41,256 nucleotides of DNA from a bacterium (GTDB lineage: Bacteria; Patescibacteriota; Patescibacteriia; Veblenbacterales; UBA10138), in contig JAGVEX010000013.1 of the NCBI GenBank assembly GCA_020057885.1, positions 1 through 41,256 on the forward strand. The letters run 5' to 3'. Of this stretch, positions 9,364 through 33,461 are shown piece after piece; position 1 is the stretch's first letter, and the number at the start of each line of letters is the position of its first letter. The notes below the pieces were generated by a model. The model searched no databases, was not told the DNA's origin, and saw only the letters and a list, made by a program, of their open reading frames with translations. The translations under genes and the position numbers were made by a program.

Positions 9364-10629
9364 ATGACACAACATTCTTCCAATAAGATACCGCCGATAC
9401 CACCGGAAATGGAATACGAAAAAGAGATCCGCGAGTTGTATCGCGAGCGCAATGCTAAACAATTTAGCACGCCAACGGGCAAGCTTCACAAGCCGCGCGG
9501 TTGGCATTTTGAGTTATTAATAGCTGTAATTTTGGCTGCCATAGTAAGCACTCTAGCTAGTGTTAGTTTAATAAGTTTTCTGCAGCCAATAGTATCGGTA
9601 ACGAAGTATGAAAAATCTCCTACCTCGGTTTCGTATACCCCAGAAATTAGCGAAGAATTAAAGCACAGTTTAGCCCCGGCAGTGGTAAGTATTTTTGTAA
9701 GCCATCCCACGTCTGTGGCGCCGATTGATAAACTTTATTTGACGCGTGAGGCGTTAGGACAAGGATTGGTGCTTTCGAGCGATGGCTGGATAGTTACCAC
9801 GCAGGCTGTAGTGTCCGACGCCAAACGTTCTTATCAAATAGCCTCAGCCGATGGCGCCATGCACCCTGTGCAAATGATAGTGATTGATCCAGCCGTGCCT
9901 GTAACCTATTTAAAAATTGAGGCCTCCAATTTAAGCGCCACTGCTTTTGCGGAATTTAATTCTTTGGCTATTGGCCAACCGGTGGTGATTGGCGCTTTTT
10001 CTACCCAATCAGTTAATCCGGCAATTTATTTAAGACGCTTAACACATCTTTCTGCACGTATAATTAACAGTCGAGCGGATGTAGTTGCTAGTTCCGATGT
10101 AATACCGGATAGATATTTATTTGATCAGCCCTTGCCCGCAGGTACTTTAGGCGCACCTGTAGCTAATTTACGCGGTGAGATTATTGGTTTGGTGGGTGAA
10201 TATGGTGGTGAGGCGCGCGTTATTATTCCGCTTGATAGCTTGAATAGTATAATTGATATGTTGTTTGCCAAAAACGAAGTTCATCGCGCTTCTTTGGGCT
10301 TATCTTATTTGCAATCAGAATGGACTGAATTATTTTTGCCCGCGGATGATAAATTAGGTCAAGGTGCTACTATTACGTCTTCTGCTAAAAGAGTGGCACT
10401 ATCGGCTAAAGGAGCGGCGGCGCTTGCTGGTTTTAAAGAAGGCGATAGAATTATAAGTATCGGGAGCGATCGTTTGGGCGTACGAAGTTTGTCTTCTTTA
10501 TTGCAACAGTATAGACCAGGGGATAGATTAGAATTTTTGGTGGAGCGGCAGGGTAAGGAAATTAAACTTTTAGTTACTTTGGGTAACGCGGCGAGTAAAG
10601 GCATTTCATTGGTATCGCCTAAAAAATAA
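9364..10629 (+). CDS. HtrA-like membrane-anchored PDZ protein with destroyed catalytic triad
   Basis: The 421-aa protein has a cytoplasmic N-tail, a membrane helix at about residues 48-70, a trypsin-like domain (about 90-310) and a PDZ domain ('AALAGFKEGDRIISIGSDRLGVRSLSSLL', about 335-415). The fold signature is clear, but all three catalytic positions seem replaced: 'TNNHVV' of DegP is 'TTQAVV' (His to Ala), 'DP..DIAL..I' is 'DPAVPVTYLKI' (Asp to Pro), and 'GNSGG.LVN' is 'GTLGAPVAN' (Ser to Leu). It should therefore bind but not cut substrates. It is last in the envelope cluster and followed by a terminator. Confidence 0.85.
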   Translation: MTQHSSNKIPPIPPEMEYEKEIRELYRERNAKQFSTPTGKLHKPRGWHFELLIAVILAAIVSTLASVSLISFLQPIVSVTKYEKSPTSVSYTPEISEELKHSLAPAVVSIFVSHPTSVAPIDKLYLTREALGQGLVLSSDGWIVTTQAVVSDAKRSYQIASADGAMHPVQMIVIDPAVPVTYLKIEASNLSATAFAEFNSLAIGQPVVIGAFSTQSVNPAIYLRRLTHLSARIINSRADVVASSDVIPDRYLFDQPLPAGTLGAPVANLRGEIIGLVGEYGGEARVIIPLDSLNSIIDMLFAKNEVHRASLGLSYLQSEWTELFLPADDKLGQGATITSSAKRVALSAKGAAALAGFKEGDRIISIGSDRLGVRSLSSLLQQYRPGDRLEFLVERQGKEIKLLVTLGNAASKGISLVSPKK

Positions 10630-10726: not shown

Positions 10727-10795
10727 GTGGAACATCTCAAGTTGGTGAATAAATATTGCCTTAACTTAGCCAAAATTAATAATCTATTGTTCCAC
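10727..10795 (+). promoter_or_regulatory. Upstream control element, copy A (GTGGAACA-N53-TGTTCCAC)
   Basis: Perfect 8-bp inverted repeats GTGGAACA (10727-10734) and TGTTCCAC (10788-10795) are separated by 53 nt that include CTCAAGTT and CCTTAACTTAGCCAAAA. The element ends 5 nt before the TTGACA of the next promoter. Copy B at 32498-32566 has the same arms, the same 53-nt spacing, the same core words and the same 5-nt gap to TTGACA. This fits a paired operator, or an activator site that loops DNA. Confidence 0.75.
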
Positions 10796-10800
10796 ACGCA

Positions 10801-10829
10801 TTGACAAAACATGTCTTTAGGGCTATTAT
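10801..10829 (+). promoter_or_regulatory. Promoter of the barrel-like gene
   Basis: TTGACA (10801-10806), 17 nt, TATTAT (10824-10829). The leader to the ATG at 10887 is about 50 nt. Confidence 0.8.
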
Positions 10830-10886: not shown

Positions 10887-11411
10887 ATGAAAAATATTAT
10901 TGTTTTAGTCGCGTTAGTAATTTTTTTATCTGGTCTTGCAATGGGCCAGCTAAAAGATGAAGTTCAGTTTGGCGCTGGACTTCAAACAGTTGTAGGGAAA
11001 TCGTCCTCCTTAATCTTCCAATTTACAACTTATAGCCCGGAACATATGGGATTTTTTATTGATGTAAGTGTGGGGATGCGTGGGAGATATTATTCCCATA
11101 TGATTATCCCAGTTGATAATTGGGAAGGCGCAGGCGGATTACAAATTTGCCTTTGGAATAAATCAGCCATTTTGGTAGGGTATGGCTTCGGAGCTCGTTA
11201 TAATGAAAAGCATAATCGTAGACCGTATGAGCGTCACAGAGGATGGCTTATAGGCGTTAGGGTTGTTAGCCCCAATTTATTTCAAAATCGGCGCGATAAT
11301 ATTGCGCTGACACTAGCATTGTCTCCAGCATCGGTGGAGACACTAGTGAAAAATAAGTGGGAAAAATCTCACAAAAACATTGTCACTTTAGGAGTGACGT
11401 GGAATATATAA
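10887..11411 (+). CDS. Secreted protein resembling a small outer-membrane-type beta barrel (174 aa)
   Basis: A clear signal peptide ends near 'SGLAMGQ'. The mature part alternates polar and hydrophobic residues ('VQFGAGLQTVVG', 'MGFFIDVSVGMRGRYYSH', 'SAILVGYGFGARYNEK', 'GWLIGVRVVSPN', 'IALTLALSPASV', 'HKNIVTLGVTWNI'), a pattern of amphipathic strands that ends in a strand-like C-terminus. This looks like small barrel proteins of Bacteroidota-type outer membranes, which is surprising for a monoderm CPR cell. It has a strong promoter under the duplicated upstream element, a weak Shine-Dalgarno (GTGAG), and its own terminator. The barrel call is by pattern only; function unknown. Confidence 0.6.
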   Translation: MKNIIVLVALVIFLSGLAMGQLKDEVQFGAGLQTVVGKSSSLIFQFTTYSPEHMGFFIDVSVGMRGRYYSHMIIPVDNWEGAGGLQICLWNKSAILVGYGFGARYNEKHNRRPYERHRGWLIGVRVVSPNLFQNRRDNIALTLALSPASVETLVKNKWEKSHKNIVTLGVTWNI

Positions 11412-18394: not shown

Positions 18395-18424
18395 AATAAG
18401 GTGGGACATTTGTTCCACCTTATT
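18395..18424 (+). terminator. Terminator of thyA-folA
   Basis: AATAAGGTGGGAC and GTTCCACCTTATT form a 13-bp stem (one G-T), followed by TTGGG. It is strong in stem but weak in T tract. Confidence 0.8.
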
Positions 18425-32497: not shown

Positions 32498-32566
32498 GTG
32501 GAACATTAAGCTCAAGTTAATAAATAATGCCTTAACTTAGCCAAAACCTATTGCCAATTGTTCCAC
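32498..32566 (+). promoter_or_regulatory. Upstream control element, copy B (GTGGAACA-N53-TGTTCCAC)
   Basis: GTGGAACA (32498-32505) and TGTTCCAC (32559-32566) are separated by 53 nt containing GCTCAAGTT, TAAATAAT and GCCTTAACTTAGCCAAAA. It ends 5 nt before a TTGACA. The arrangement matches copy A at 10727 in arms, spacing and core. Confidence 0.75.
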
Positions 32567-32571
32567 AAGTA

Positions 32572-32600
32572 TTGACAAATTCATCTAGACGCGCTATGAT
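32572..32600 (+). promoter_or_regulatory. Promoter of the structured leader and 173-aa gene
   Basis: TTGACA (32572-32577), 17 nt, TATGAT (32595-32600). Transcription would start near 32607, giving a leader of about 330 nt. Confidence 0.8.
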
Positions 32601-32606
32601 AATATG

Positions 32607-32939
32607 TTATTTTCGTGCTTTGTTTATTGAGGTTTGATTGCACTTTAACAACTTGAAAAAAGTTATCCCTACCAACCTGGGAGGGGAGAAGTAGTAATTA
32701 TTAAGGCTAATATTGGTTTATACTGATTTTTACCTTAAGTATTACTCCTTAGTATGCTAGCCTTCGGGCAAAGGTGTGCTTTTATCTCCTACAGGTTGGT
32801 GGGGGTAAAAAATTAATTTCCGCCAAATAGCGACGCCTATCAGTCGCACAAAAACAAATCCGTTGAGTGATAGGGCTCAACATCACTCCACTTACCGACC
32901 AAGGGACCACCCAAGGCGGAAAGAAGAAAGGAGTTTCAA
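32607..32939 (+). ncRNA. Long structured leader RNA (candidate novel cis-regulatory or stand-alone RNA)
   Basis: Domain 1 is closed by a 15-bp helix, ATCCCTACCAACCTG (32665-32679) with CAGGTTGGTGGGGGT (32792-32806). Inside are GGAGA/TCTCC, AGTAAT-TTAAGG/CCTTAA-ATTACT and a GCC-TTCG-GGC hairpin. Domain 2 is closed by TTTCCGCC/GGCGGAAA (32817-32824, 32915-32922). It holds GCGAC/GTCGC with loop GCCTATCA and GTTGAG/CTCAAC with loop TGATAGGG; CCTATCA and TGATAGG can form a 7-bp kissing helix. GAGTGAT/ATCACTC is a competing 7-bp hairpin. The Shine-Dalgarno AAAGGAG starts 5 nt after domain 2. I could not match it to tmRNA, RNase P, SRP RNA or a known riboswitch. Confidence 0.7.
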
Positions 32940-33461
32940 ATGTTTTATATTTTTTTAGATCAAAACAAAATGTCTTCCGCAGGTATCGATATAACCCCAC
33001 AAAAAAATGGGGACTCATGGCCAATAATAGAAATTGGTGGACTTGTGGTTGAAATTAGAGAGGATGGTTATCAAATAACGTCAGCAGGCTCCTCAATCAA
33101 AGGAGCAAAGCTTCCTAGTCAAATTAGTCCAGACTGGGTTAGTGAGATTAGTATTTACGAATGGATCCCAATTCGTCCATACCGCAACCGGGGTGTATAC
33201 AAACTACGCAGTGCTGAAATATACGTAGATAGTGCGGCGGGTGAAGGACGCAACTCTTCGCTGCATTTGGTTATCAAGTGCAAATATTTGGCTGATGGTA
33301 AGGAATTATATGAAGCAATTCGTGCGGGTATTGCAACTCCCGTTGTCAGTTGGGAAAAAGAACAAATTAAGGCGTCAATTAGAACAGTTGCTGAACTGTT
33401 TAAAGAAATTTGGCAAATATTGAGATTTAAAATTAATCAAGAATTTGCCAAAATAGATTGA
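32940..33461 (+). CDS. Hypothetical protein downstream of the structured leader (173 aa)
   Basis: The ATG at 32940 is preceded by AAAGGAG with a 6-nt gap, so this start is favoured over the Met at residue 11. The product is soluble: beta-rich first half ('WPIIEIGGLVVEIREDGYQI', 'YKLRSAEIYVDSA', 'SSLHLVIKCKYLADGKEL') and a helical end ('KEQIKASIRTVAELFKEIWQILRFKINQEFAKID'). I recognise no family. It is monocistronic, with a duplicated upstream element, strong promoter, long structured leader and tandem terminators, so it is unusually heavily controlled for this genome. Confidence 0.7.
   Translation: MFYIFLDQNKMSSAGIDITPQKNGDSWPIIEIGGLVVEIREDGYQITSAGSSIKGAKLPSQISPDWVSEISIYEWIPIRPYRNRGVYKLRSAEIYVDSAAGEGRNSSLHLVIKCKYLADGKELYEAIRAGIATPVVSWEKEQIKASIRTVAELFKEIWQILRFKINQEFAKID

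Follow-up and report, generated by a model that had tools for sequence, protein, structure and literature searches.

A 69-bp sequence that recurs in front of promoters in an ultra-small Patescibacterium is a genuine, conserved composite promoter element with its own regulon. The element, two copies of which (A and B) lie in the window, i.e., the whole 41,256-nucleotide stretch analysed, is probably a composite activator site placed before strong sigma-70-type promoters and used by two factors. Regulation in Patescibacteria is essentially uncharacterised, and a 2024 perspective describes the mechanisms governing differentiation between their cell states as completely unknown (PMC11665869); the element offers a first handle on gene control in such a cell. 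It yields a testable operator in many genera, a likely gene set and a covarying RNA family outside Rfam. The most valuable by-products are a class-wide dyad and this uncatalogued RNA family, and the single 22-bp dyad could lead to a regulator common to much of the class. The source genome belongs to the Ca. Kerfeldbacteria family and is labelled G000; contigs named without a genome (C2, C5 and so on) are its own. The copies, their positions and conservation, the phasing and the RNA covariation are read directly from the genomes.

Promoter-linked copies and the arms

A pattern search of the window with GTGGAACA-N53-TGTTCCAC gives exact matches at 10727-10795 (+) and 32498-32566 (+), whereas dinucleotide shuffles of the window give none. 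Both copies are as first annotated, with the inverted arms, the N53 spacing, the words CTCAAGTT and CCTTAACTTAGCCAAAA, the 5-nt gap to TTGACA and the 17-nt spacer all confirmed (Table 1). In the whole 952-kb genome seven copies are present, against zero for a reversed-pattern control; the C17 copy has N54 between the arms, and in six of the seven the right arm is followed by 5 nt and then TTGACA-N17-(-10). The arms and CTTAGCCAAAA (TTAGCCAAAA in C17) are conserved in the other copies, and CTCAAGTT is not conserved outside the window pair. A third exact arm in the window, at 18411-18418, is unrelated to the element and lies inside a terminator-like hairpin (18398-18423, GGTGGGACATTTGTTCCACC followed by a T-rich stretch); this hairpin is probably a terminator, and the arm within it a coincidence.

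Table 1. Coordinates of the element, its promoters and the features behind them (window positions unless a contig is named)
Feature	Position	Strand	Remark
Copy A, left arm GTGGAACA	10727..10734	+	
Copy A, left half of dyad, degenerate	10758-10763	+	GCCTTA
Copy A, core half-site TTAGCCAAAA	10766..10775	+	right half of GGCTAANNTTAGCC dyad
Copy A, right arm TGTTCCAC	10788..10795	+	5 nt before -35
Copy A, promoter	10801..10829	+	TTGACA 10801-10806, 17-nt spacer, TATTAT 10824-10829
Copy A, gene for 174-aa secreted protein	10887..11411	+	signal peptide MKNIIVLVALVIFLSGLAMG
Copy B, left arm GTGGAACA	32498..32505	+	
Copy B, core half-site TTAGCCAAAA	32537..32546	+	
Copy B, right arm TGTTCCAC	32559..32566	+	5 nt before -35
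Copy B, promoter	32572..32600	+	TTGACA 32572-32577, 17-nt spacer, TATGAT 32595-32600
boxA-like CACTTTAACAA	32641..32651	+	9/11 to TTCTTTAACAA, 10 nt before RNA; suggestive only
Three-way-junction RNA	32662..32809	+	member of multi-copy family
Copy B, ORF 3' of RNA, 173-aa protein	32940..33461	+	Shine-Dalgarno; unknown family
Element copies in the genome	C2:104583-104651(-), two window copies, C5:51869(+), C12:101462(+), C15:22763(-), C17:8561(-)		
Second RNA-like segment	G007:C7 (L060), G006:C2 (L061/L068), G002:C106 (L057/L077), G003:C1 (L046)		

Two readings would deny the element a function of its own. Recent duplication of an RNA gene together with its promoter could account for the sequence common to C2 and C12, 91 bp on the upstream and about 276 bp on the downstream side, and for the roughly 200 bp common to C2, C15 and copy B; however, copy A, C5 and C17 have little in common except the arms, core and promoter, and other genera keep these same parts while the remaining sequence has changed, which makes duplication very improbable. 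A mobile repeat, such as a MITE or a transposon end, is largely refuted and its probability is close to nil: the element is repeated and palindromic and its C17 copy adjoins a split radical SAM gene, but orientation and distance to the promoter are constant, a syntenic rpmF copy exists in another genus, and the far ends of the units share no sequence.

Insertion sequences occur at two of these promoters. In C12, transposase genes lie between the element and its -35 (L016 6587-8716), with an apparent 5-bp target duplication, AGTAT, and in G002:C51 transposase genes directly precede the -35 of the RNA gene (start of L050); these are apparently independent insertions at the same promoter position.

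Upstream of RNA genes in five other genera the arms recur as (A/G)TGGAAC or GTAGAAC and GTTC(C/T)(A/T)C, and a site divergent from rpmF carries an element copy in three genera. In G000 and G002, nusB and rnc come next after rpmF, and this rpmF-nusB-rnc cluster adjoins the C15 and G002 copies. Together with the seven copies, these findings bear out the small promoter-linked regulon suggested initially. The GTGGAACA/TGTTCCAC arms are specific to the Kerfeldbacteria family. A contig scan for the arms plus TTGAC had a single match in Kerfeldbacteria and three elsewhere (Elusimicrobia, Chlorobium, Flagellimonas), close to the estimated chance number of around 5. A DnaA-box reading of the arm (TGTTCCACA, 7/9 to TTATCCACA) is disfavoured, as relatives have GTTCCTC.

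The initial annotation had proposed that a dimeric regulator loops the DNA over about six helical turns. In its fuller form, the arms would be half-sites of one dimeric or tetrameric regulator looping about 61 bp, the middle being passive, and this is consistent with the exact inverted arms in all seven copies of the genome, with 61-62 bp between centres, and with their conservation in the five other genera. However, the arm-to-arm spacing of 53 or 54 in this genome becomes 50 in G002, 49 in G003, 27 in G004, G006 and G007, 26 in G005 and, in a single G006 copy, 74, so that the helical phase ranges between 0.24 and 0.90 of a turn, whereas the gap between right arm and -35 is 5 nt for 16 of 17 promoters and 6 nt for the remaining one. 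Because spacing and phase vary while only the right arm keeps its distance to the -35, looping over six turns is not supported, and with the middle being the most widely conserved part of the element this reading is unlikely.

A class-wide dyad at the element centre

The element centre belongs to a much wider activator-type motif, a point missed in the initial annotation. Its word TTAGCCAA makes up one half of a dyad, GGCTAANNTTAGCC, that is present class-wide upstream of promoters; a complete version, TTTTGGCTAAAATTAGCCAAAA, is found in G002:C106, and in the window copies the left half is degenerate, keeping 4 of 6 positions. Within the family, the pattern TTAGCCAAN{12,42}TTGAC (that is, TTAGCCAA-N12-42-TTGAC) has 47 matches in 8 genomes, compared with 10 for the reversed control. 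The 22 matches with a good -10 have gaps of 15, 18, 21, 27, 37 and 38 (R=0.75), whereas the 21 lacking a -10 show no phasing (R=0.19 or less), 18 of them lying inside ORFs; the family phasing alone reaches p about 0.06 once orthologues and paralogues are collapsed by hand. In the class as a whole, the complete dyad with TTGAC occurs 46 times in 30 of 144 genomes, compared with 3 matches in the reversed-pattern control, and the gaps to the -35 cluster at 14-19, 25-29 and 33-37 (near 17, 27 and 35-37 bp), approximately 10 bp apart (p about 5e-5 against a uniform expectation that ignores composition, for matches that are not fully independent).

The genes behind the core sites, named from reading of their translations, include the atp operon in G000, G001, G002 and G003, infA-rpsM-rpsK in two genomes, and also infB, rplU, rpoB and secreted proteins; an infA-like gene follows the class-wide dyad in two more genomes. 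In G100 and G033, from another family having the RNA described below, promoters carry two dyads about 20 bp apart, and the G100 example is on the contig and strand of the RNA.

An UP-element-like or intrinsically bent DNA contacting the polymerase alpha subunit, instead of a factor site, would fit the A+T-rich surroundings and the phased position upstream of the -35. GGCTAA/TTAGCC and GTGGAACA are, however, sequence-specific, G+C-containing and dyad-symmetric, unlike A/T tracts, and such an explanation is quite improbable.

Two dyad-bearing loci of the source genome are recorded here as observations. From G000:C16:20653 on (L130), a full dyad and promoter precede a tiny membrane-like ORF (about 25 aa) that has its own terminator-like hairpin and adjoins 5S/23S rRNA genes. 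At G000:C2:94879-95159 (-) (L096, about 1880-2160), a dyad-controlled transcript with a long-rod fold (z -2.6) is followed by a tRNA; Rfam, at gathering and relaxed thresholds, has no family for the RNA-like transcript here (C2:95182).

Genes behind the copies and a structured RNA family

The two window copies were first said to precede unrelated genes. This overlooks that most copies drive one structured RNA family: the RNA lies behind four of the seven (C2, C12, C15 and copy B). It is also found behind a degenerate element on contig C13, and on C5 the transcript preceding murJ is possibly a divergent relative, although the RNA model does not detect it. Copy A drives a secreted protein matching no Pfam or NCBIfam family. 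C17, like copy A, precedes a secreted protein, here with a T9SS-type sorting tail. On this contig (stretch L018, 5727-9152) a radical SAM gene is split, its parts being separated by the element, the promoter, the secreted-protein gene with the T9SS tail and a terminator-like hairpin, and a second, similar secreted-protein gene at 10069 has a dyad at gap 37. Separately, a Csx3-domain protein preceded by a P-loop-like protein is encoded 3' of one RNA copy (stretch L014, 5296-6296), and no CRISPR genes were recognised near this pair.

The RNA, a segment of about 150 nt common to C2, C12, C15 and copy B, consists of a long stem that closes it, a G-rich/CUCC helix and a pair of hairpins, GCCUUCGGGCAAAG being in one of them. 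The fold of a five-sequence alignment already contains 17 double-changed pairs. A covariance model detects the RNA in all 8 family genomes and, after rebuilding, in 20 of 381 class genomes from seven families. Among 24 copies, 91.4% of cells are paired, compared with 38-49% when the structure is slid along the alignment, and 42 of 56 pairs are changed on both sides; none of 500 shuffles reaches the observed values. Because the model served to fit the alignment, these covariation numbers are biased towards the structure, but they stand far above the slid controls. No Rfam family matches the RNA at the gathering threshold, with only chance-level matches at a relaxed threshold, and a literature search covering few subscription journals found nothing on structured RNAs in Patescibacteria.

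Behind many RNA copies, 20-150 nt further on, there is a ribosome-binding site with a small ORF, whose product is often a membrane or secreted protein and differs each time; others (G007:C22, G003:C1, G003:C6 and G002:C51) are followed by a terminator-like hairpin and no ORF, and some, in G172 and G048, lack both the arms and the core upstream. The RNA was not accepted as an integron attC-like structure, as the units have no common far ends and G-U pairs are kept in every copy (pair 70-189 in 22 of 22), which indicates folding as RNA, not DNA. TIGR-Tas arrays were also set aside, those being tandem guide arrays (PMC12045711).

In many copies a boxA-like word occurs shortly 5' of the RNA; its mean score is 8.5/11, compared with 6.7 for shuffles, with full matches to GYTCTTTAANA in G005:C47 and G002:C51. 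The signal comes mostly from about a third of the copies, several being no better than shuffles, and the sequence match is no more than statistically suggestive.

Additional RNA arrangements were seen among the relatives. In four genomes (Table 1), a promoter of this kind is separated from the first RNA by a second RNA-like segment, whose closing stem is of the type GTTTAYCTAGGTAYC...GGTATCWGGATAAGC; it is possibly another uncatalogued structured RNA, and in G006:C2 it has its own small ORF. In other families the RNA occurs as neighbouring copies, three in G048 (L048/L056) and two 16 nt apart in G081 (L144/L152).

A composite activator model and known systems

From these patterns we infer protein binding, activation as its effect and the involvement of two factors. 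The element centre would be a partly degenerate inverted-repeat operator, TTTTGGCTAANNTTAGCCAAAA, used across the Patescibacteria class by a conserved candidate DNA-binding protein to raise transcription of growth-linked genes. The candidate activator would contact RNA polymerase from about -62, -72 or -82 in class I geometry, and from -72 here; the dyad centres are calculated as gap plus half-dyad, with transcription assumed to start 7 nt downstream of the -10. The most parsimonious reading is that a class-I-type activator acts at the dyad. The Kerfeldbacteria family would have a second factor, dedicated to the GTGGAACA/TGTTCCAC arms, of which the one adjoining the -35 is positionally constrained and occupies the position of class II activators; alternatively, a single protein may use both dyad and arms. 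In this genome the composite promoter would drive the approximately 150-nt RNA copies, alone or as leaders of small proteins, many of them secreted or in the membrane, and also two secreted proteins.

The promoters are near-consensus in both the -35 and -10 hexamers, with 16-17-nt spacing, and because a consensus -35 is already present, it is not evident why an activator would be required. Such promoters would suit a repressor operator, in which the dyad or arms silence them, e.g., in dormant or free-swimming cells, and release them during growth. However, dyads positioned at -62, -72 or -82, 5' of the -35, would leave the core promoter free, and helical phasing such as theirs is typical of activators, so that repression is about as unlikely as looping. 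A bolder extension of the activator model, doubtful but somewhat less so, is a phylum-specific, non-CRP master activator that couples atp, rpoB and infA-rps with the boxA-bearing RNA, the latter acting as a processive antitermination or mRNA-handling module for small surface proteins; if true, ribosome synthesis and episymbiont surface proteins would be switched together.

The closest parallel is with class I activator promoters such as those of E. coli CRP, e.g., lac. CRP activates from -61.5, -71.5/-72.5 and -81.5/-82.5 and hardly from -66.5 or -76.5 (PMC6301791), and the dyad centres described here are likewise near -62, -72 and -82, one turn apart. The operator differs, being GGCTAANNTTAGCC and not TGTGA-N6-TCACA or TTGAT-N4-ATCAA. 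CRP itself is ruled out as the dyad-binding protein, as none of the 8 family genomes has a CRP-family protein above cut-off (CRP/FNR-type HTH, PF13545), whereas 14 of 14 control genomes match. The rRNA-operon boxA leaders of NusB/S10 antitermination (boxA consensus GYTCTTTAANA; PMC5725501) resemble the RNA units in having a strong promoter and a boxA-like word, here GTTCTTTAACAA, 5' of a long closed stem; unlike them, these units encode a multi-copy RNA other than rRNA, often with a small ORF behind it, and the boxA match is only suggestive, as noted above. Riboswitches, T-box leaders and EAR/LoaP antitermination elements differ in that the present RNA has no Rfam match and some copies end in a terminator with no ORF, but they share with it a conserved 5' RNA structure before ORFs and strong covariation.
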